Shown here piece after piece: positions 4,854-49,470 of a stretch of 64,000 bases of DNA. Under the pieces are notes generated by a model. It had not been told where the DNA came from and did no database searches. It was given only the letters and a program-made list of their open reading frames with translations. Origin of the DNA: Glandiceps talaboti. Lineage: Eukaryota; Hemichordata; Enteropneusta; Spengelidae. How positions within the stretch are numbered: the first letter of the stretch is position 1; each line of letters starts with the position of its first letter. The stretch covers positions 24,089,181 to 24,153,180 of the forward strand of contig NC_135552.1 of the NCBI RefSeq assembly GCF_964340395.1. Reading direction: 5' to 3'. A program made the position numbers and the translations under genes.

Positions 4854-10333
<5,480 letters not shown>

Positions 10334-23221: not shown

Positions 23222-26200
23222 GCAACAACAACAACAACAATAACAACAACAAAACTTATTTTTATAGACCAATGCATATCCATTAACTTTTATTCAATCC
23301 TTTGAATATTCCTACTTTTGACAGGAAAAAAAGAAGAGATGTCAAGTGTTTTTAAAGATATCAACTCTTACACAAACACAATATGAGTAATTTCAACCAA
23401 CAAAGAGTTGTCAATAATATTAGTTCATGATATGGATGAGACTGACCAACAATGTGCTCTTAGTTTTCATTCAAATTTCATACATCATCTCTCAAAAAAT
23501 TACTATCATACAAATTTGTGTTTCATTATTTTATTCAAATTTTATTTTTGGTCACTTGTAGGAATAGTTTAATGATGAGTTTCTGCCAACCATACCCTAA
23601 CAACTTTGTAATGTAGACTCTCATTTAGTCTCCAAAAAAAGTTAGAGGAATGTACATCATAAAGATAGCATGCCATTTACAGCACATGTTGACACAACAT
23701 ACATGCAGGGCAATATCTCTAGGTAGAATCTACTTATTTATTTTTATTTATTAATAGAAGACTAACGGGAGCAAGTCCCATTAAATCTACTTAGTTTCCC
23801 AGTTTTACAACAGCATCAAATCAAAATTATGGTGCAGTGTACAGAAACTATGCAAGCTATATCAGATTCTCCCTTTCTGTCGCTAGAGTATTGGTAATTA
23901 CCCTGTCGCTAGAGTATTGGTAATTACCAAAGAACTATTACAACTTACCTCACTTCCTGGACTGCAATACCACCATGTGGTATGGGTGGTGGTGCTTTAG
24001 GATGAAGCTGTCTTTGAGTGTAGTTTGTTAAAGTCACTGCTGGAATCTCAGACTTATTTCTGTGGAATAATGTTATATGGGGTTATATTTGTGTAAAGTT
24101 CAAATTATAATAACTTATTTGCATAACATTCCTTGTTTTCTCGTTTGTTTTGTTTTCAGAATACATTATTTCAATATTCCATGAGTTACTCTTGTAATGT
24201 TACTATCAATGAAGTCATGTTAACTTACTTGATAGCTGTGGCTACTGTATTTCTCTTTGGTTCTTGATCATAACTTTGAGTCTCACATCCGTACATCTCA
24301 GCCAATTCATGGATGACACGACGCTGATCTCTATTCCCCGGGGCAAATGAATGGCTCCTTTTCTTGTGTTTAGACTGACAATTAAAGACAAGAGAGACAT
24401 TTCTAGACACAAAAATAGACAATTGATGACCCCCTCACCTCAGGTATGCATGACAGAAATCACTTTATAGTTCAAACAAATTTCCAGTCTCAAAACATAC
24501 AAATATGAACTGAAATAGGTCAGGATTCAAAAAGATGCACATTGTGAAACAACATAAAGACAATACTTTCATTTACTGACAGTTCTAAAAATGGAATTAA
24601 CTTTTTAAAACTCAAGACTTGTCTATGTACAAACTACTTTGTGATGAGTATATACTAGTATCTGATGCATTTTGAAAGATTTCAGAATATACTCAGATAT
24701 TTTGTATTCAATCATAAACTCATCGCCACTTGATAACATCTCCTCAGCAAACTGTTTCTATGGTATCAACAAATTTGGGTTTGTTTATTATTTATTATTT
24801 AACCAAATAACTTACTTGTTGGACTGATGTAACCAAGTTCCCCAATTCTTTCTCCACAGAAGATACAAATTCTGCATTTTTCCTGAATAAGTAAATAACA
24901 ACATTCATGTATGGGTTTGAAACTTTGATAGCTATATGCAAAATATGAGACAAAGATCTCATCAGATCCTCATACTAGTATACGAATATTAGTCTTGTCT
25001 CATACAGAGCGCGATATATGTAATAGTTGTCTTGTATTCCCACACGTGTAAAGCCTTACTTATCTACCCTTGGTTAAAACAACTGCATGGTATCATACAG
25101 GGATGGTACATCACAACATGTTTATTTGTCTTCTGCACAATATCATTCATAAATAACATTACAGTTTGCAGTTGTCATCAACCTCAGTTCTAAAACAACT
25201 GGTACTGCAAATCATAAAACTGATTTTTTTTTCCAATGTGAACTTTGCATTCAAACAAATTTTCCACAGTCAAGACAATGACTGGAATGTGTAATCCATG
25301 TATTTACTTTTCAGTGAAAAAGGATGATTAAAAGAGTATTTGATAAACTTTTTGTCAGTTTCATATTTTACATATCTTGCTTGATCTAAGATATAAATAT
25401 ACAAAAATATACCTTCTACAGAAGGTACACACCTGACTTTATCTTTCACACACTCATACAAACAGCTTTGTGGCTACATATTACAAGAATTCACCCACCT
25501 GGCTTGTTCTTTTAAGAACTGACAATATGCAACTCCAGGTTTGGAAGACAGATCAGGATTCTGTATTTGTAGGGCGTCAGCAACACGTCTGCAATAGAAT
25601 TATGGAACAGCAAATACACAGTTACTGTAAAAATACTGTAGTGTCTAATTTTGGACAGAAATTACAAGATGGCTTGGCATCTTGTTCCTTTGTTCAGGAA
25701 GAACACTACATTTAACAAAAAATGCTGATAGAAATTTGTGAGGACTATTTCTCTTTTGGTCTAAAACAAAGTTGAAATATATTAACAAGTTACAGAAAAA
25801 TAAAAGTATCCTTCAAAAATTTTGGCGGGAAGCATCACTTCACAAAGTGTTTTTTCTATAATTCCAGTAGTCTGCTGTAAAGTTCAGATGTGTCAAAAGA
25901 CTTACTTAAAACATAAAATTTTTGTTCTCAAGATTTTGACAGCGAGGTAGACGGACAATAATATGTGTGGATTCAGTTTTATCTGAAATGGTGAATTATG
26001 CCAAAAACACACCAAAGTTATGCAAAACCCTACCTACATCATCTCTGCATGATTACATGTTTAGTTGGCTGTTTTTCTGATTTTAGTCACCTGTTCACAG
26101 CAACAACTAGTACTTCATTCACTTATTTCACACCATTATTTCAAATATATTGTACATACCTGTTTCTCTCAATTATAGCACAATCTTCAGTACACTCCAA

Positions 26201-29200
26201 TCTGCAATTAAATATATAACGGTATGTCTTAGAGAGAAAATGCCACAACTTCAACAACCTGGAAGACTTAGCAGACTAGAGTGTTGTGATAAATACAGCA
26301 AGGTGGCACTATAAGCGCTGTTATCTGTGTATGTCACAGGAGATTTTTTTGCAAAACACAGAATTGCTGAGAGTACTTTTTTTTATATATATTTGCTTAT
26401 AATTAAGGACTAAAATGATTAAAATGATGTAGCTGTTGATAAATCATGCCTAATCAAGTGTTGTAGAGATTTGGAGCACTTCTTGATACAATTACTAGAA
26501 TGCTGGGTTGGTGTATTTGCCTTGCCCTTAAAGAAATAATTACAGTACAATTTCGTGAGTGGCACCCCCGCCCCACATAATCTAGTTCTAGTTCACTTGC
26601 TATCTAGGGTTTTATCCTTCCTCCTGGCCCCCTATTCTAGTTAACTTACTGTCTAGGGTTTTGTCCCTCCTTCACTTGGGTCAAATATCGGATGTCTACA
26701 CTCTGACCTGACTGAATGTCACACATCTTACTTGCCAGTTGTGAGGTTGCCAGTCTGAAACAGAAAACACATTCAGTTAATAGTGTAGTTGCTGAACCTT
26801 GTCATATGCAATACACAAGAAAGACAGCATTGAAACTGTTAACACTATAGTGTGACGGAGAGTTACAACCAGTAGGTCTCTTCATCATAGGTGAACTGAC
26901 CTTCATAATGGTTTTTAGGTTTGTGTCAAATCATAATACAGTGACAAATCACACTAATCGTGTCCTCAATGAAAACAAAAAACACATTCAGTTAATAGTG
27001 TAGTTACTGAACCATGTCATATGCAATACACAAGAAAGACAGCATTGAAACTGTTAACGCTATAGTGTGACGGAGAGTAACTACCAGTAGACCAGTAGGT
27101 CTCTTCATCATAGGTGAACTGACCTTCATAATGGTGTTTAGGTTTGTGTCAAATCATGATACAGTAACAATTCACACTAATCTTGTCCTCAATGACAGTA
27201 AATATGTGTAGTTTTAGTTCAAACAACAGGAATATTCAACTTAATCCAGGAAAGATACAAGTTTGCATTCAGCATTCATATCTGCTTGCATTTCTCACCT
27301 CTGAAAAGACTGCGCCATTTGAACATAATCACCACCCTGCTGACAAACACCTTCTTCTTTTCGATTACCACATTTACAAGTAACACTAATCTAGAATTAT
27401 AAGACAAATACATCATTCATCTAAAATTTTCTGATTCAGTGAAAAACTGTCTTTTTTATTGACAGTCTCCAATCTTGGTGATCAGGCAGCTTGTATAATT
27501 CAAACATTGTTTTATTACATATTCTACAAAACAAAGACAAAAATAATTGGTTATTAAACCAATGACAAATTAACTATAGTCCCTCACAAAATCTGTGCTT
27601 CATAAGTCTTCTACATGATGTCAATCTACATTAAACTGTGATACAAATTTGAAGATATTAACAAAACACATTGCATATGCTATGATTACGTCAAATGTAA
27701 GTTCTGGTAATGATTGCCATAAAATCACTGAATGAAGACTAACATCACATTGGATTGGTAAAACTCTGAGACTTACTTTTTTCTTACATGGATGTTTAGG
27801 ACAAGGTTGACCTGGATGACAAGGTGAACTACATGCATGTCCACACTCTGGTCTAGCAATGACACATGGCTGATTACACACATCGTCACACTCTTCCTAA
27901 ATAAATAAATAGATAGATAGAAAAACATAAATACATAATGTCAATAGATAAACATTAATCTATCAATATATTTTCAGTTTTACATTATAATTTCAGTAAT
28001 GAATCTAGCTTTTAAAAACAAAACAAAAACGTCTTTGTTTCCATACATATATATATGTGTATTAGGAATTGTTGTAGTGATTGGTGATAACACATTAAAA
28101 CAGTCCCTGTAGTAGTAATAGTTAAAGTTGATAGCTGTATTTGTTGTGTAACCTTTCACAATCCTTAAGAGTTTTGTAAAGTGTTGAAATACAGAAGGTG
28201 GAAATGACACTGCATGGAAATGATTTCAGTCCATGATATGTTCTTACAATAACTAGAATACACTTTACCGCCATCTGTCTGGGACAATATTCTGAATGCA
28301 CTTCATTAAAGGTAACATTGTAGTTGTGAGGCCTAAGGTAACTATATCTTCTAGGATAACTATATGCTGTTGCAGACAGAAATGCTTGGTTCCAATGATT
28401 ACAGTAATTCAAGAATACATGCTGTTTCATGTTGCTAGGCAACACTGATGATTAGTTTACAGGTACCAAGGTATACCATTGATATTGACAAATATCATGT
28501 CATTTTCACTTGACCCCTTCATGACCTCACCTACTGCTATTTGATTGGATGTTCAGCCACCCACCTTATGACAAATCTTTTGACATCTATGTTGTTGGCA
28601 GGTTAACGTATTCCCACAAATCTTCCCACATGTGATATCCTTGATATGACAGGGAATATTACGTCTCATCTGTGAATGAAAGATAAATTTGAAGGTTATC
28701 ACAACATAGCATAGCTGATGGCAATTTGGCACAATATTCACAATTCCTAATGTTGTAAGGTATACTATATACATTTGGATAAAGGGGAGGGTTTCAATCC
28801 CAGGTTCCTGCATTAGTGTTATCTTATTAGTGAAGCAATAAGTATTACAAAGGATCATTCTTTTGTGTTGGAACATCTGTTTCTATAGCTCTGCCGAAAA
28901 CCTGATTTTGACATCCCAATTTTTAATCCTCTGCCGACATTGGCCTTTAATCCCAGGTTCTCTCATCTGTATACCTTATCTGTGGCAGCATAAGGATTTA
29001 ATACATATAATCATTCATTTGCTCTGGACCAAATTTGTCTATACTTTTAACAGACAACTCTTTTGTTCATGCAAATTTTACTAATCCAAACTGGGCCTTC
29101 AAGATACCAGAAATATTGTTTGCATAAAAAAGTGTCCCTAATCCTACAGTTCTCTAGATGTCATAGAACGATACAAAGTATAAATAACAAAGTGCTAAGA

Positions 29201-32200
29201 ATTGTTAAAAGGTGGTAAAATACACCAAAGGGCAGAGTAACCCCTTTATATGTAATAGTGGCAGAGATATCAGGCATGAGAAACAATAGGAAAACAATGT
29301 GAGAAGACTGCAGTGAAATGAAATATCTTGCTATACCTCGTGTCGTCCCATACATTGTCTTTCAACAAGGAATGTACATGGTGGACATTTCTCTTCACTA
29401 TGACATGTGTGTTGTATAGCATGATCACAGTCATGTTGTCTTGTACATGCACGACTACATTCTGGAGGTCTAGTCCCACACGGAATGGGTGGAAATAGAA
29501 TCTCAGCCCCACAATAACAGGTTAACTCATCAAAACCTATCAGGAAATTGAGACAAAATTATTACGTTAGTCCAAATATATCATGATTATCATGTCATAT
29601 CAGACAATTAACAGTAAATATTATTCCACAATATTTTGTTTCGTTAAGCCAAGGAAAATACAAGTGACCTGAGGGGCTTTGTCACTACGAGTTGCTACAA
29701 AAATAGTGACAAAACCATCAGATCACAAGCATTTTCTGACTGAAAACTGGGAAATAATATCATTATATCTCCTCTAACATGATTTATGAAAATATGGAAA
29801 AATAATTTGGAATGTTTTTTTTCTTCACATTTTGAACATCACAGAACCAATGACACAGACCGACGTTGTCTTGACACAGAATGACCTGGGTATAAAACCC
29901 ATATTTTGGTTAGAATGTGTTCAACCTGACTTGTATCTGGTAGTAGAATTTACGGTCATGCTACCAAATGTGGATATCAGATATACTTCAATATAGGGTA
30001 GAGGTAAATTACCTGTCTGCCAACACTGTTCACAGTTACCGCCATGACATGGTTCTTCACATTTATGCCAGCCACAGTTCAGTTTCCTGTTACACACCAA
30101 TGGACATTTATGTTCTTCATCCTAAAACAATAATCAGTTATGACAATCATATAATTCTTTTCTTCCGGGTACAAAGGAAATAATCATTTACGTATAATTA
30201 TCCTTCCCCTTCCCCTTCCCATCAGTATACCATCTAACCATCTAAACAGTTACACAAACAAGTTTACCTACTAAGACTACAGAGAATAAACACACTTCAG
30301 GATGTACAACATATAAAACACACCAATCTCTAAACTGCTGCCATGACAACTATTGCACCTCTGAATTCATATTTGCAAACTTACCACACAGCATCTTTGA
30401 ATACATCGATGTCTGCCACACTGTCTTTTTTTATTGCATCTTTTATCACAGGTTGGTTGTTGAGATGGTGCTGTAATTACGATGTCAATGCATGGAATCT
30501 CTTTGTCCATATAACCACATCGACATTTGACTATGGATGTACCACTACATGGATCACACTCGCCAGTGTGACATATGGACTTACACAGATGCTGATCATC
30601 TACAGACAGGCAAAGAGTTGTAAAAGTAATATTGATAAATCATGTGGTGTTACCATAGCAATTATTACCAAACAGTGACACTGCTTTGTTCTCAACATTT
30701 TACAATTAACAGCTGGTAATAAATAACTTTTGCTCATAACAAAATAACAATGTTTAGATATATTTAAAGTGTTCTCAGTGTCATGATAGCAACTACATCA
30801 GCAATTTCTAATACCAGCAGTCAAGTGTGTATGGGTATCTATTTGTGACACACGGATACGTACACACATCCAGTCACACAGCCACGCATGCACATGCAGA
30901 CACACACAAATTCACACACAACAGGGTGTCCAATATCAAACTAATACTATCTCACAAGTAAAACTGTTACCTTGACTACCACATGAATGCCGTTTGTTAC
31001 ATATCTGTTGACAAGTAGGTAATGGATCAGTGCAGGATGTCCTAGTTTTACCGTCAGATAGAAGAGTTGATATAGAAGTCTGACCACATGGACAATGAGT
31101 TGCAACAGATGGAAGGAGTTGACATGGCTGACAGGGACCTTGGTGACACTGCTGCTGACATGGATGATTACCACATGACAACTCTCTGTGTAGAAAAATA
31201 CATACATGGTTACCACATGACAACTCTCGACTGTGTAGAAAAATACATACATGGTTACCACATGACAACTCTGTGTGTAGAAAAATACATACATGGTTAC
31301 CACATGACAACTCTCTGTGTACTAAAATACACACATGGTTACCACATGACAACTCTCTGTGTAGAAAAATACATACATGGTTACCACATGACAACTCTGT
31401 GTGTAGAAAAATACATACATGGTTACCACATGACATTGCTCTGTGTACGAAAATACACACATGCTTACCACATGACAACTCTGTACAGAACATACATGGT
31501 TACCACATGACAACTCTCTGTGTACAAAATTGGTGAACAAATTTCAATAATTAAACAATTATTGGGAAAGATAAGAAAACCGACTTTTTGATCAAACTGT
31601 AGCCTGCGTCATTACTATTCAAGTCCTATCAATGGGCAAATCTTGTAACAACTTGTTGATTAGATGTTGTTTCTCAATTTAACAGCCACCGTCTTTTGGT
31701 TGCATTATCAAGATAACCTGTCTGTGTGGCTGCCACCTCCCTCCATCATCATCATCACCACCACCACCACCATGAAATATCATATATCATAATGAGATCT
31801 TAACACATACTCCTTGTCTTACATATACATACCTGCCACAAATCTGTTCACAGGCATAAAATCCTGTGCCTTCAACTGATGTACATATGGTTGAAGCATC
31901 TCCACATAAAACATCTCTATTACACCGTCCACAATAGCATTCTTTTAGGAGACAAATAAAAATATTCTTTTAACACTATACATGGCAATGAATATTAAAC
32001 CTAGCTTCAACAATTGTCAAATCCCAAAATGTACAGTGGAACTTGAGTTAACACCATCATCTATCACAATATCATTACTGTGTTCAGTGCTACAGTGTAC
32101 ATAACTGTACCATTACTACATAGCCCTACTCCTGTCTCTGTCACCACACCATCAACTGAGTGGCTTTATTACTGCACTACATTTACCACTGTACAGTTTC

Positions 32201-35200
32201 CAATGTCCTTGCTCTTTGACAATGTTTGTCACCATACTAGTTTCTTTTTAGCACAAAATATAAAACGTTCTTGACAACATAGAAATGCTGTCACCATACA
32301 GTTTATTTTAAACTATCACATAATGTAAAACTTGTTTGACAACATAGAAATGCTATGACATATACCGTTAGTTTATTTTAAACTATCACACAATGTAAAC
32401 CTTGTTTGACAACATAGAAATGCTGTTACCATACTGTTTATTTTAAACTATCACACAATGCAAAATGTGTTTTACAACATAGAAATGCTGTGACATATAT
32501 CCTGGTAGTTCATTTTAAATTATCACATAATGTAAACCTTGTTTGACAACATAGAAATGCTATGACATATATCCCGGTAGTTTATTTTAAACTATCACAC
32601 AACATAGAAATTCTGTGACATATATCGTTAGTTTATTTTAAACAATCACACAATGCAAAATTTGTTTGACAAGATAGAAATGGTACAATACCTTGGTTTA
32701 CCAATACCTGACATTGTCCACACTCTTCAGCATGACAGATTCTTTCACAGCTATGTATCTCACAATTTAGTTTCCACCCACATGTCAAATCACAGTGGAT
32801 TTCAGATACTGTACCACAACGTACTGATTTTCTGATGCACAGTTAAGTATTACATGATAACAAAACGTTTCTTTGAAATATTCGGGTTGATACGAATTAC
32901 CACATAGTTTATTGAAGAATGATTTTTCAGTGAGTGACTTTTATTGATATGAGCTAATAATGATCATGAAATTTCTCATTATTTGAAAATACAATTGTAT
33001 ATGGTAGGGGGTCAAATCATAAAATCTGACCCACTCCTAGGGGTCAACTCATAAATTTTGACCCATTCCTAGAGAGTAAAATCAGTGTGAGTTTTCAGTA
33101 AGGGTCTACAATTATTTGCTAATTTTGGTCTGTATTTTTGTTTCAGGTAGGAAGCTTAGTTCCCAGAGGTACTTTTGGGGTTCCCCATTAAAATTATGGT
33201 ACAACTTATTCAAATCTAGGCACGATAGATTAGGCCCCCTTCTGTTACCAGGGTTACAATATTTCAATAAAACACAGTTACTCTGCTCAGTATTTACATG
33301 TAAACATAAACTATCTGGCAATGGCTGACTTCAAAGGATACTTTGTTCTTCCACAGGCACAACTCTTTGTAACAGTAACTGGGCAGGTGGGACAAGGTCC
33401 TGGATGACACAATCTGTCAAGAATGGGAAAAAAAGAACTCTGGTTGAGAAAATAATACTTACATATTTGCGTGTACAATAAGACATACATTCAGGATTCA
33501 TAAATAATTTGCTTATCCTAGATCCACACATACCATTTGTTACTATTTAGTATTTCCTAACCCAGTGACAGGACACTGCATATATGGCATGAAATGGCAA
33601 GTGTTATTTTGATGACACAGATAATTACAAGCCACTACCTACATATTGAGTATTGACTATATTTAAAGTTATAGAGAACAACACATGCAATTCTTCAAAT
33701 GAACCAAAATATAACACAGAAAAATGTGATTTATCAATACTTACAGATTACAAGTGTGTGGACATGATGTTTCTGTTCGTCTTTTTCTACAGATTTCAGC
33801 ACAGCTGTGAGGTGTTTGCATCCGATGCCATTCTGGATCTCTAACTTGACCACAAAAACACCTGTACACTGACGGCACTTTATGGCAAACATTTTGACAA
33901 GCTGGGCACCTCCAGCCCTCTGCACTTTCCACTGAAATAAATGTATGAGATATACCAGATGAAAGGGATCAACAGATAATACAATGTAATAATGATGGGT
34001 TATTGGTTATAACATGTCTTGTAAAATATAATTGAAACTGTTAGGACTCCTGTTATAGAACTGCAAATATAAAATGTATATATTTTTTTTTTTGTAAACA
34101 ATAATTTCTTGCATTACAGATTAGATGGCTTATGCTTGAATACCTTATTACCAACTTTTGTTGAAGAAACTTTTATCTATTTTCTTCTTTTATTGACTAA
34201 AACGACTAAAATGCAATGTTATCAAAAATGGACTTGGATGACCTTAGTGACCTCTGATCAAAGTTCACCTGCTTGTGAGGAAAGGAGTAGTAAGTTCTGA
34301 AATGCGAGTTACAGACATACCTGCACTGGTTGCTATGGGCGACCTGGCCCATTTTCTGACACAATGTAAATGGAAGACTGTATAACATGCCTGACAACTC
34401 CATACAGCTACCTGACATCTGATGACATCAAAACACACCATACACTCATATGTACCATTGCTTAGAGATTCAATCATGGAACCTGTGAAAAATTGCAAAA
34501 TCATGGTTTTACAAAATATTGTATCCCTGCTTGAAGTAATGGCTCTAAAATGTTAATGGATTATGGCATTATTTTCAGTATTGAAAATACATTAATACAG
34601 CATAAACGTTCAACAATATAGCATGAACAGCTCAACAGAATAACATAATTCTATGGTTTGTGAAATTGAAGTCTTTGCTAATGTGACACTTGTACTCAGT
34701 CAATTTCAGTAGTCTCCATGAAAAATTGAATTACTGAGTTACAATGTAAAATGCACTACAAATTGGGAGAACTGCCTTTGTTCAAAGAACCAGATATATT
34801 GTAATAACTTGAGGGTTCAGCTAACACTTTTAATGTGTACTGGGGTCTATCTGCTATCTGCATTATGTACCATAGGGCCAGTGAACACTGCATTGTGTAC
34901 TGGGGTCTATCTGCTATCTGCAATATGTACCATATGGCCAGTGAACACTGCATTGTGTACTGGGGTCTATCTACTATCTGTGTTATGTACCATTGGGCCA
35001 GTGAACACTGCATTGTGTACTGGGGTATATCTACTATCTTGAATATGTACCATAGGACCAGTGAACACTGCATTGTGTACTGGGGTCTATCTACTATCTT
35101 GAATATGTACCATAGGACCAGTGAACACTGCATTGTGTACTGGGGTCTATCTTCATTACGTACCATAGGGCCAGTGAACACTGCATTGTGTACTGGGGTC

Positions 35201-36391
35201 TATCTGCTATCCATACTTCCAGTCAACACTGTACTATATGCACTTTCTGATTCTATGATAGATCCTACAATTCTGTTACATACCTGTTTGACTCTCCGTA
35301 GTTTGTTCTCTTCTGTTCATCATAAAATTCCTTCTTCTACTCTGCATCCCATCAGAATGGTATGATTTGGCAGACCAAGGTGTTGCTAAATCTTTGGAGT
35401 TTTTATTCTTGTTATATTTCTCACCATCAGCTGCTTTATTATTGCTCCAGTTGTTAAATCTCCTCCCTGACTGTTCTTTCACAGTCTTCATTGCTCTTGC
35501 ATGATCAATATTTTCAAATTGTCTATCAGTATTTTCCCCAGCACCTTTGGATGTTTTTGATTTGCTTTCATTCTGTTTCTCTAGTAATGAACTAATAGCA
35601 TCAAGTGTATCACTTTTGGGCTCTACTCTTTCACTTGACCTATGTTCTTTGTCTTCTGCAGAGGAAAACCTCTGTGCCTGTAGATTTCTGCTTGTGTCAA
35701 TGTCTTGATTTCCAGGGAATTTCCTGTCTTGATACTCTCTTCTGCTAGATCCACGCCCCGCAGACCTTGCCTTGGTTGGGTTTTGATCAACTTTACGTTC
35801 TGTATTCTCAGATGGGTTTCCTATTCCTTCAGCATTGCCTGTTACTTTACTGTGAGAGTCATTCTTTCGCCCAGATTCATAACCAGCGTATCTATCATTG
35901 CCATGATGTCGCCATGATTGGCTACTCTGTTGGCTGCCTTGTTGTCTCCTACTCTGTGACTCAGTTTGTCGATATCCTCCATAGCCATGATATTGTCTAG
36001 GTCTACCACCTTGATTACCAGGTCTTTGAAAATTATCTCTATAATCATTAGCACCAGTATTTTGACCATCACCAAAACCACTTCCCCCTGTGGTCATATA
36101 TGTTTGCTGCCCTCCATACATATAGTTTGGCTGGTCAAATCTTGGTTGGTGTCTTGGTGGATAGAAACCTGCCATTTGAGGGGTGTTGTTGTAGTATGGA
36201 TTATATCCTGTATTTACAAATGTATTTGGAGGATTATTGTATGGATCTGTATTATACCAGGTCACTCCAGACTGAGGATCATAGTATTCGGTGTATCCAG
36301 CACTGGGATCAATATTCATGTTGGTGTGGTAAGTGGGAGTGTTGTAAAGAGGTTGTGTACTCATAGACTGGTCATTCCATTGTCTATTCAT
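23042..36391 (-). CDS. NFX1: NFX1, NF-X1-type zinc finger transcription factor / E3 ligase
   Basis: Twenty exons join in phase: 36391-35284, 34482-34321, 33931-33745, 33413-33342, 32831-32692, 31941-31833, 31185-30971, 30599-30385, 30121-30013, 29536-29337, 28669-28565, 27896-27777, 27390-27299, 26754-26650, 26201-26160, 25588-25499, 24882-24816, 24374-24229, 24059-23949, 23135-23042. The product is 1162 aa; human NFX1 is about 1120. Exon 1 encodes a low-complexity Tyr/Asn/Gln/Ser-rich N-terminus of about 369 aa. Exons 2-3 encode the RING-type finger ([31 protein letters not shown]). Exons 4-12 encode tandem NF-X1 fingers (for example [13 protein letters not shown] and [18 protein letters not shown]). 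Exon 18 is the R3H domain ([14 protein letters not shown], residues about 1050-1095). The tail YFDMVQ resembles human DYFDVQD. The family acts in the nucleus on X-box promoters and binds RNA through R3H. Three tandem arrays abut its exon junctions. Confidence 0.95.
23178..23255. repeat. (CAA)n microsatellite
   Basis: About 24 CAA-type triplets with CAG and TAA interruptions in NFX1 intron 19. The poly-Cys ORF on the other strand is an artefact. Confidence 0.97.
23878..23929. repeat. 26-bp tandem duplication
   Basis: Two perfect adjacent copies of the unit beginning CTGTCGCTAGAGTATTGGTA, located just after the exon 19 donor in NFX1 intron 19. Confidence 0.9.
26760..27195. repeat. tandem duplication of about 215 bp in NFX1 intron 13
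   Basis: Two copies, each starting near AACACATTCAGTTAATAGTG and ending near CTAATC-TGTCCTCAATGA, separated by a few bases and differing at roughly a dozen sites. The first copy begins immediately upstream (in transcript sense) of the exon 14 acceptor. Confidence 0.9.
31160..31535 (-). repeat. 42-bp array of splice acceptor plus exon 7 start in NFX1
   Basis: Nine copies counting the genuine one, mostly 42 bp (one 45, one shortened). On the minus strand each reads TTTTTCTACACAG then AGAGTTGTCATGTGGTAACC. Each copy therefore carries a pyrimidine tract, a CAG acceptor and the first bases of exon 7 (codons ELSCGNH). The copy nearest exon 7 runs on into the real exon. The frame stays open through eight units, so use of an upstream acceptor would add about 14 residues ([14 protein letters not shown] type) per unit. 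Confidence 0.95.
32255..32683 (-). repeat. 60-75-bp array adjoining the exon 5 donor of NFX1
   Basis: Six to seven units contain GACAACATAGAAATGCT, ACATATATC and TTTATTTTAAACTATCACAC. In transcript sense the first unit starts only about 9 bases after the CAAG|GTATTG donor of exon 5. Several units carry CAAG followed by GTTTAC, a donor-like word. Confidence 0.9.
34828..35230. repeat. 60-bp minisatellite in NFX1 intron 1
   Basis: About seven units of TGTGTACTGGGGTCTATCTG followed by CTATCTGCAATATGTACCAT and GGCCAGTGAACACTGCAT. It ends about 50 bp from the exon 1 donor. The unit length allows open frames on both strands, which are artefacts. Confidence 0.95.
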
Positions 36392-36396
36392 AGCAT
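36388..36396 (-). promoter_or_regulatory. minimal uORF overlapping the NFX1 start codon
   Basis: The minus strand reads ATGCTATGA. A two-codon uORF (ATG CTA TGA) begins at 36396 and its TGA overlaps the main ATG (36391-36389) in the form ATGA. A likely acceptor (GATGAACAG) lies about ten bases upstream, so both would be near the start of the second exon. This arrangement could allow termination-reinitiation. Confidence 0.5.
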
Positions 36397-36419
36397 GATT
36401 GCTATCTGTTCATCAGTAT

Positions 36420-38285: not shown

Positions 38286-38355
38286 ATTGAAGACGCTAAA
38301 ACAGTTGCCAAGAAGTATTGAAGACACTAAAACAGTTGCCAAGAAGTATTGAAGA
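38286..38355 (+). repeat. 30-bp tandem duplication in the GPCR leader
   Basis: TATTGAAGAC-CTAAAACAGT followed by TGCCAAGAAG is repeated twice, with a third partial copy running up to the receptor start region. Confidence 0.9.
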
Positions 38356-38366
38356 CAGCAATTCAC

Positions 38367-39419
38367 ATGGAGAACAGCTCAGCTATCAACAATTTGATTC
38401 CGTCTCTCCAAACAGTAACAGGGACCGGTAATGAGCCATTCAAACCAATCGAGCCTTGGACTGAAGCACTAAGTCCTACAATTGTCACTTTACTCGTCAT
38501 ACACTTCACTCTCTGCTGTGTCTTTGGAATCATTGGTAATTCATTAACCATCATTGCCATATGTAAAATACCAAGACTCCACTCTGTACATAATTACTTC
38601 ATAGCAAATTTAGCTGTGGCTGATTTCATGATTAGTTCCATTGTTCTGCCAGGTAGAATCATCGCAATTGTACACCAAAAATGGCCCTTTGGTGACACCA
38701 CATGTCAGCTGGAATCATTCATATTGCGAATTACAATGATATCATCTTTCTTCAGTCATATCATTATTGCTATAGACAGATATATTGGTATTACCAAATC
38801 ATCAACACTATATTCTATGATTTTCACTACACGAAATATGGTCGCAATGTGTGCCTGTGCATGGCTTCTACCAGCAGGCATTTCAGTCTCTCCGTTCTTT
38901 GGGTTTGGAGAGTTTGGGTATAATTCTCTTATGGTTATATGTGCTCTGACTACTAGCCCACAGAACATGAACCTAATGCTTATATCTGTAGCCGTAAGTA
39001 TTACTCCTGGAAGTGTGGTTATTCTTATTTGTTATTATCTCATATGTAAAGAAATATGTGCTAGCACACGAAGAATAGCCAATTCTACTGAACTACCCAC
39101 TATATCAAGAAACACCGCACAAATGTTCCTACAAAATGGACATGACTCGATAAAAAGAAGAAGAAAAAAAGACAAGCAAGTGACAATAACTTTATTTCTT
39201 ATTTATATTGTTTACTTAGTTTGTTTTCTACCACTGAATGTTGTTTTCATTGTAGATAGAGAAAACACATGGGGGAGATCAGTTTGGTTGATATCAAGTT
39301 GTTTGGCCACTACCCATGCATGTTTGAATGTTGTCATTTATGCCTGGAGATACTCGCAGTTAAAAAAGGCATATATTTGTCTTTTAGCTTCAGTTTGTAA
39401 ATGTAGATGCTTTCACTGA
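38367..39419 (+). CDS. rhodopsin-class GPCR, melatonin-receptor/moody/GPR84-like, one coding exon
   Basis: A 350-aa receptor from the first ATG at 38367; the frame is open a little further upstream but without another ATG. It has an N-terminal glycosylation site (NSS), then seven hydrophobic segments. TM1 has GNSLTI and TM2 has LAVAD with the conserved Asp. A Cys before TM3 (TTCQLES) pairs with one in ECL2 (VICALTT). TM3 ends in an intact DRY (IAIDRYIGI). A basic third loop (IKRRRKKDKQ) is followed by CFLP in TM6. TM7 reads LNVVIYAW, so the usual NPxxY is NVVIY. The tail is short and cysteine-rich (CKCRC), likely palmitoylated. It presumably couples to G proteins at the plasma membrane. The ligand is unknown and the subfamily is only approximate. 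Confidence 0.88.
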   Translation: MENSSAINNLIPSLQTVTGTGNEPFKPIEPWTEALSPTIVTLLVIHFTLCCVFGIIGNSLTIIAICKIPRLHSVHNYFIANLAVADFMISSIVLPGRIIAIVHQKWPFGDTTCQLESFILRITMISSFFSHIIIAIDRYIGITKSSTLYSMIFTTRNMVAMCACAWLLPAGISVSPFFGFGEFGYNSLMVICALTTSPQNMNLMLISVAVSITPGSVVILICYYLICKEICASTRRIANSTELPTISRNTAQMFLQNGHDSIKRRRKKDKQVTITLFLIYIVYLVCFLPLNVVFIVDRENTWGRSVWLISSCLATTHACLNVVIYAWRYSQLKKAYICLLASVCKCRCFH

Positions 39420-46724: not shown

Positions 46725-47595
46725 CTCTTTATAAAAAAAAACTCAAAAAAATAAGGGGAGAACCATTTGATTTCGGGGGGGGGGGGGTTTAGAGGAAAAA
46801 ATTATCGGCAGGTGAAGGATGAAAAAAAATGGTCCCGTAATGGCCTGAATAAAAAAATATAGAAGTAAAAAAATTGTTGCGATGTGCTACAAAATTGGTA
46901 ACCGAGAATAAAAATTGCACTGCTCCTGCAAATGGAAAACATAATTTGATACAGGACTGACAATAGAAAAACAATTTGCTGTCACAGTGATAGGAAAAAA
47001 AAACCCTCCCCCAAAATCAAATGGTTCTTCCATAAGCTTAATTAAAAATGATGGATTATGAAAAGTACGGACAAACAAATGTCAAAAAGTGAAACGAACA
47101 TGATGGAGGAGATATCAGATGGGATGAGACGCCTATTACTTGAAGCTGTAAAATTTATGACCTACCACCTTGACCGTGCCGTGTAATGAAATGTACAGCT
47201 GATAGTAAAGAAATCAAGTACTTATGAACCCTTCTGGTCTTTATCAAATCTTCGGAAAAAAGGTCTGAACAAGCAACGAATCCCCGAAATTAATCACCAA
47301 ATGATAAATATATCACCTCATATTACACATTAATAAAGTGCAAGGAAGCCAAGACTTATTTTTAAGTTACACTCCATAGTATATTCCTCTGGTATTCCAT
47401 CCACATATTCTGATAAGAGTTCAAGTGAATTTACCCAAGTTATAAAACAGTTACATCATAGACCCTCCACCAACGAGGGTCTATGGTTACATATACCAAT
47501 ATTTGTCATCACTAATGGGAAATGTTTGTCTATGGAGTAGCTACATTGTTTCTGTTTATCCCCTCTTTCAAAGTATCACAGATAACGTGTAGCTT
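46725..47595. other. no gene recognised
   Basis: G-run near 46777, A-rich tracts, and an approximate inverted pair GAACCATTTGATTT (46763) / AAATCAAATGGTTC (47016). No coding exon is visible. Confidence 0.35.
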
Positions 47596-47599
47596 CTAG

Positions 47600-49470
47600 T
47601 CTATTTCAGATATTTTCCACTCTGTCCAGTAACTCTCAAAAAGATGACCTACCAGATCACACTTCAGTCAACGATATCACTGAGAAATTCAGTCAATATT
47701 TTATTGACAAAATAAGAAATATCCGCCTAAACTTTTATAATTCACAACCAACACCTGCATTTGACTCCCTGGAAACCCATACTTCATCTTCTCTGTCTGT
47801 CTTTAACCCAGTGAATGCAGATGATATCAGCAAAATTATTAACAGCACGCCGTCTAAAACCTGTTCCCTCGATCCTATCCCCACACCGCTTCTGAAACAG
47901 TGCCAAGAACACTTGTGGACCATTCTGTCTTTCATCATTAACTCATCTCTTACTCGTGGTAATGTTCCAGAATCACTCAAGTCTGCCGTCGTTAAACCAA
48001 TTCTCAAGAAATCCTTACTTGATGCCAATGTATTCAAGAACTACAGACCTGTCTCCAATCTACCATTCGTTTCTAAAATAATGGAGAAAATTGTTGCAGC
48101 CCAACTAACTGCATACCTTACAGCTAATTCATTACTAGAGCCACTACAATCTGCCTACAGGAAACATCACAGCACAGAGACAGCACTCATCAAAGTAAAC
48201 AACGACATCTGTATAGCACTTGACAGAGAACAATGTGTACTACTTGTTCTTCTTCTAGATTTGTCAGCTGCTTTCGATACAATAGACCACAACATACTCA
48301 TTTCAAAATTATCAAACCTTGGCATTACCGGCATCCCACTGCAATGGTTTAAATCATACCTGCAGAACCGACATCAATCAGTATTAATATCAGGCAATAC
48401 CTCCAAAGCACAACATCTACAATATGGCGTACCCCAGGGCTCTGTGCTAGGCCCACTGCTCTTTTGCATCTACATTTCTCCATTTGCCACCCTATTATTA
48501 AAAGACGTCATGATTTGAATTTTATACAATATGCTGATGATAATCAACTATATGAAGGATTTGCTTTGGCTGACACATCCACCACTGTTGCCAAGATGGA
48601 AACTGCAGTACTGGACATAAAATCATGCATGACACAAAACAAACTTCAACTAAATGATGGTAAAACTGAGGTACTACTCATTAGGTCTCAGTTTATGCGC
48701 ATACCCCGTCCCATTGACAGTATAAACATTGGATCATGTTCTGTTCACTTGGTTAACTATGCACGCAATATTGGTGTAACTTTCGATGATAAGCACACTC
48801 TTAGGAAGCACATTACCATAACATGCAATTCGATCTATTACAATCTTCGAAAAATTGGTCGCATCCGTCGCTATCTGACAAGTGAAGCACGTGGGAAAAT
48901 CTAGTCCATGCTCTTGTCTCATGCAAACTGGATTACTGTAATGGACTCTTATATGGTTTAGCATCTAAAGACATTACTCATCTACAACACGCTCAAAACA
49001 CAGCAGCCAGAATTGTTTCACGCTGCAAGAAATCAGACCATATCTCCCCAGTTCTCAAGGATCTACATTGGCCACCAGTCTACTACAGAATACACTACAA
49101 AATACTCTTGATGACCTACAAAGCTCTCAACAATGCTGCACCTAGTTACATATCGGATCTGATCAGTTATATAAAGCATGCTCCACGTGTACTTCGCTCC
49201 AACAACAAAGGTCTATTACACATCCCACCCTGCAAACTTAAATCCTATGGTGAACATGCTTTTTCACCTGCTGCCCTGCAATTATGATAGTCTTCCGGTT
49301 GCTCTGCGTCAATCACCAACTCTGGACAAGTTCAGGAAAGACATTAAGACTCATCTTTTTTTGAAAGCATTTTGATAAGAACTCTTTTTAGTGTCATGTA
49401 AAGTGCCTTTGAACATTCTGAGTAATGGATTCAGGCGCTATATAAATTGTTTGATTGATTGATTGATTGA
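47600..49470 (+). mobile_element. 5'-truncated L2/CR1-like LINE (reverse transcriptase plus 3' tail)
   Basis: The reverse transcriptase is recognisable in order: KNYRPVSNLPFVSKIMEKIV, SAYRKHHSTETAL, LDLSAAFDTIDHNI (first catalytic Asp), YGVPQGSVLGPLLF and FIQYADDNQLY (YADD box). The downstream part carries CKLDYCNGLLYGL, LHWPPVYYRIHYKIL and the end region FRKDIKTHLFLKAF. The copy has about three frame breaks: near 48500 just before YADD, at about 48902, and near 49290 before the last block. The endonuclease half is missing. The 3' end is GCGCTATATAAATTGTTTGA followed by a TTGA-type run, typical of the L2 group. It is inactive. Confidence 0.92.

Follow-up and report, generated by a model that had tools for sequence, protein, structure and literature searches.

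In a 64,000-nucleotide window of the Glandiceps talaboti genome (contig NC_135552.1; all positions below without a contig name are those of this window, the whole stretch of DNA that was analysed), the boundary between intron 6 and exon 7 of the NFX1 gene is present as nine tandem copies (31164..31529, minus strand), each comprising an intron 6 end and an exon 7 start. Very probably this is a mirage-type minisatellite, a class known from amphioxus, which is mostly silent in splicing, with the last acceptor at 31186 in regular use and perhaps some low-level mis-splicing. The array, its boundaries, the reading frames that it offers and the spacing seen in homologues are directly established.

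The NFX1 gene and its genuine exon 7 acceptor

Both features by which NFX1 was recognized, namely the NF-X1 fingers and the R3H domain, are encoded at this locus. Exons 2-12 as modelled extend over 27777..34482 on the minus strand and, once joined, match PF01422 at five places (E up to 1), with a PF01424 match in an R3H exon further downstream (24225-24434). The top homologue, showing 56% identity over 99% of the query, is itself named NFX1. Exon 6 (31833..31941, minus strand), followed by the donor GTATGT, is separated from exon 7 (30971..31185, minus strand, as placed by the spliced gene model) by an intron of 647 bp, the last part of which is occupied by the array.

The CAG of the most downstream copy (copy 9; 31186..31188, minus strand) is the genuine exon 7 acceptor, as seen from two lines of evidence. 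Firstly, splicing there joins the modelled exons in a frame that is open over 544 aa. Secondly, it places the cysteines flanking the junction at a spacing of seven residues, both counted, which is the spacing in 117 of the best 120 of 280 homologues (118 of 121 aligned rows when the window is included). The other three of the 120 listed homologues are shorter at this point (two with none and one with three), and none of these best 120 of 280 has a longer exon 6-7 junction. Splice variants are on record for human NFX1 and, in the available text of PMC8067315, differ at the C-terminus. Two further minisatellites lie in the same gene, one at 32252-32671, in the intron that follows exon 5, and one at 34834-35211, upstream of exon 2; among the arrays checked only that at 31164-31529 overlaps a modelled NFX1 exon. 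Elsewhere in the assembly a region of contig C9 (11716909-11717046) weakly matches the protein of NFX1 exons 6-8 (54% identity, E 3.6e-5) and perhaps represents a related NF-X1-type gene.

Anatomy of the array

TRF delimits the array at 31164-31529 with a period of 42 bp, 8.8 copies and 86% matches, and as a tandem repeat it is more than chance. The TGTCATGTGGTAA core occurs nine times on the minus strand, at 31512, 31477, 31435, 31393, 31351, 31309, 31267, 31222 and 31180, the successive spacings being 35, 42, 42, 42, 42, 42, 45 and 42 bp. Each unit consists of a T-rich tract and CAG, corresponding to the intron end, and of ~20 bases from the start of exon 7. The array displays three features of mirage minisatellites: a tandem arrangement, units spanning an intron-exon boundary, here the acceptor with the start of its exon, and splice signals within the copies, here a CAG shortly 5' of the core in all nine together with GTAACC and GTATGT words. 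A preliminary description of this DNA had assigned the array to intron 6 of NFX1, with duplication of the acceptor and exon start and with 31186 as the true acceptor, all of which the gene model and unit map bear out; its unit length of 42 bp applies to most of the spacings, but not to the single ones of 35 and 45 bp.

The copies differ among themselves, and do so in irregular order. In an ungapped count that left out copy 8, copies 4, 5 and 7 show 98-100% mutual identity, and copies 1 and 2 at the upstream edge are only 52-82% like the others, a figure that for copy 2 partly reflects its 7-bp shorter spacing, since ungapped comparison is poor for copies 2 and 8 with their unequal spacings. 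The divergence of copies 1 and 2 beside the alike copies 4, 5 and 7 resembles the edge exclusion reported for mirages in the available text on these elements, copy 9 excepted: because this copy, at the downstream edge, stays 93-95% like copies 4, 5 and 7, such exclusion would apply at one end only. In predicted folding the array transcript did not surpass its shuffled versions (z -0.68), 27 of 100 of which equalled or bettered it.

Relationship to known repeats at splice sites

By its sequence organization the array is of the same kind as the amphioxus mirages and constitutes a hemichordate case in NFX1. In PMC3087553 mirages are described from the globin genes BflGb6 and BflGb9 and from Adh3, with splice signals in many but not all units, and are called a possibly general phenomenon in cephalochordates. 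Their clusters show length instability, at Adh3 also somatic, and RT-PCR suggested that regular splicing was unaffected. They share with the NFX1 array the tandem duplication of an intron-exon boundary, the splice signals in many copies and, apparently, the homogenisation of some copies; furthermore, BflGb6, like NFX1, combines the 3' end of an intron with the 5' part of an exon. The differences are in the lineage, hemichordate as against cephalochordate, in the host gene, and in the unit, which is 42 bp in NFX1 as compared to 150-160 bp in BflGb6 and 10-72 bp in Adh3. By analogy with the amphioxus mirages the length of the array likely varies between individuals, the nine copies described here being those of one assembly.

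Three other systems are related more loosely. The VNTR in intron 18 of human ABCA7 similarly includes a splice site in its repeat unit, but on the donor side, as the repeat starts with the donor of exon 18 and its 25-bp unit with the GT of that donor; cDNA revealed retention of a single unit (PMC5954066). VNTR6-1, an intronic repeat in intron 6 of human TERT, likewise affects splicing and decay but, unlike the NFX1 array, reportedly does so through an expandable G-quadruplex and not through a copied splice site (PMC11830802). Intron gain by tandem genomic duplication likewise involves duplication of a sequence bearing splice signals; there an exonic AGGT segment is duplicated to yield a new intron (PMC3443670), whereas the NFX1 array is the duplicated edge of an existing intron, with no intron gain seen. 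Our literature search for repeats at hemichordate intron-exon boundaries, which did not use the term mirage, found no title on the subject among the papers listed, and absence from print is not claimed.

Predicted products of the nine acceptors

We joined exon 6 computationally to each of the nine copies, followed the resulting frame, and scored the acceptors with a matrix derived from the ten other acceptors of NFX1, a set of only ten sites, which in a leave-one-out procedure themselves score 0.7-9.9. NFX1 stays open with five of the nine acceptors, all CAGs being on the minus strand: the genuine copy 9 (+0 nt, score 6.7), copy 8 (31231..31233; +45 nt, 5.0), copy 6 (31315..31317; +129 nt, low score of 1.4), copy 5 (31357..31359; +171 nt, 6.7) and copy 3 (31441..31443; +255 nt, 3.4). 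The remaining four lead to a stop. Copies 2 (31481..31483; lowest score, 0.1), 4 (31397..31399) and 7 (31271..31273) are out of frame and terminate after 5 codons, and copy 1 (31518..31520; score 5.8), which the 35-bp spacing puts out of phase with exon 7, terminates after 65 codons. A TAG is additionally present 7 nt upstream of the CAG of copy 6, and splicing at it would bring a stop after 8 codons. Eight of the nine copies score between the lowest and the highest of these ten sites. The joint top score of 8.1 belongs to copies 4 and 7, both of which end in a stop; as this exceeds the 6.7 of the genuine acceptor, these two copies are possibly used appreciably.

In copies 2, 4, 5, 7, 8 and 9 the AG is preceded, at 18-25 nt, by an exon-derived GTAAC word, and the GTAACC word pointed out in the preliminary description could possibly act as a branch point for the next copy. 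In the AG-free stretch of copies 3 and 6 a UnAy branch-like word is absent, while copy 1 has others. The branch-point reading is weakened by the presence of a second branch-like word, GTCAT, 26-33 nt before the AG in the same six copies, and by the genuine exon 4 acceptor, whose AG-free stretch likewise has no branch-like word.

We infer that a segment of ~42 bp, taking in the 3' end of intron 6 of NFX1 together with ~20 bases at the start of exon 7, underwent tandem duplication and then turnover as a minisatellite or 'mirage', with the genuine boundary remaining at the downstream edge of the array. Most of the mRNA would be joined to the acceptor at 31186, giving the conserved protein. As a CAG is present in all nine copies and GTAAC stands, in six of them, at a distance from the AG that would suit a branch point, low-level use of upstream acceptors is likely; in-frame products would then come mainly from copies 8 and 5 (+15 and +57 residues), and the use of copies 1, 2, 4 or 7 would result in a stop and presumably in decay of the message.

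The same predicted stops invite another reading, in which the upstream acceptors would divert part of the message to decay and copy number would tune the dose of NFX1 between individuals. A precedent of sorts is the ABCA7 VNTR, whose length is inversely correlated with expression (PMC5954066). However, in the available text of that study one-unit retention was unaffected by repeat length, the length-dependent effect being skipping of exon 19, and the corresponding account of the amphioxus mirages judged them harmless to regular splicing (PMC3087553). We regard such attenuation as improbable. Marginally less probable again is a set of expandable competing 3' splice sites, in which GTAAC would furnish the branch point of the next copy and allele length would determine in what proportions NFX1 messages are canonical, finger-extended or decaying.

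Open frames, inserted residues and micro-exons

Lower still we place a regulated ladder of zinc-finger isoforms, in which several in-frame acceptors would be used and units of ~14 residues would alter the finger array of NFX1. This was the reading of the preliminary description, which spoke of an in-frame array of nine acceptors, and it has points in its favor: five of the nine acceptors do keep the frame, Cys and His are regularly spaced in the inserted units, and copies 5 and 8 score inside the span set by the other acceptors of NFX1. Moreover, the frame of exon 7 is, as had been stated, open through eight copies, from 31499 downwards. However, the nine copies, each with its CAG, are not all in frame, since copies 1, 2, 4 and 7 run into stops, two of these being the top-scoring ones, and none of the best 120 of 280 homologues has an insertion at the junction.

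The open frame is itself unremarkable. Over the array three of the six frames are open for at least 85% of its length, and two of these are on the opposite strand. We sampled 160 kb of the genome at 16 places on four contigs for arrays with a period of at least 20 and at least 3 copies, and found 16 arrays covering 10.3% of the sample, mostly in four long arrays; in six of them the period is a multiple of three, and three of these six have a frame open over at least 85%. The window, with 13 arrays (7.6%), likewise contains six with a period divisible by three, of which three are open, the NFX1 array included. As openness is common in the arrays of this genome and extends here to two opposite-strand frames, it is not telling of coding. 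A coding origin of the array was considered and is not needed, given the open frames in half of the comparable arrays. Nor does the position on a splice edge call for a special cause, because random placement readily gives it: when the five arrays lying in the NFX1 region, 27700-36400, were repositioned there at random, a mean of 2.1 fell on a splice edge and at least one did so in 96% of trials, the observed number being 1.

The inserted ~14 residues had been likened to half of an NF-X1 finger, a comparison that the finger model does not bear out, as the inserted units have no match to PF01422. The sole matching stretch is formed by the last copy with exon 7: in an isoform piece of 82 residues it covers residues 65-82 (E up to 1), and in the complete open frame through eight copies it covers residues 109-127. 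Skipped micro-exons, also suggested, fare no better. Among 56 single routes enumerated with the donor words GTAACC, GTAAGC, GTATGT and GTGTGT and with 50 nt as the minimum for the inner intron (GTATTT and other donor-like words lie outside this enumeration), 50 run into a stop, and the six open ones rejoin at copies 4, 7 or 8 and none at copy 9. From GTATGT to the next CAG the distance is ~20 nt, as against 263 nt for the shortest modelled NFX1 intron. Taken together, the sequence bears out the ladder reading in part only and favors a largely silent repeat with a single regular acceptor; a functional isoform ladder is improbable.

An assembly artefact or a wrong copy number, for which one seemingly misassembled BflGb6 haplotype in the amphioxus draft offers a parallel (available text of PMC3087553), is very improbable, since the copies differ irregularly, the array measures just 366 bp within a 29-Mb contig, and a query of one and a half units reported no second place in the assembly (590 Mb, 47 contigs), though such searches can miss repeats.

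Other features of the window and assembly

Among the other arrays of the window, a 33-bp repeat of 28.6 copies at 5884-6824 is apparently a coding minisatellite: it specifies a stretch of the EDSGDKDTDKT type and lies in a minus-strand frame of 794 aa, whose MFS_1 match is weak and falls short of the Pfam cut-off. A reverse-transcriptase frame (RVT_1) at 47586-48518, which frames on to 49287 appear by eye to continue, is probably part of a decayed non-LTR retrotransposon. A rhodopsin-type receptor (7tm_1) is encoded in a single frame at 38331-39419 and has distant relatives only (top match at 26% identity; 17 matches at 21-31%). Contig C40 of the same assembly contains three equal-scoring COX1 matches exactly 15,435 bp apart, as if a mitochondrial genome had been assembled head to tail. 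COX1 from this contig shares 93% identity with that of Glossobalanus marginatus and 89% with that of Saccoglossus kowalevskii, both acorn worms, against 81% or less for the remaining rows of the 120 listed, and so indicates an enteropneust hemichordate; an NFX1 tree of 29 rows gave the window no supported position.

Implications

The NFX1 array suggests that mirages can arise outside the cephalochordates where minisatellites are dense. That repeats containing a splice site can matter is seen from ABCA7, as described in the available text of PMC5954066. In the hemichordate gene, the array offers a natural experiment on the choice by the spliceosome of one AG among nine near-identical ones.
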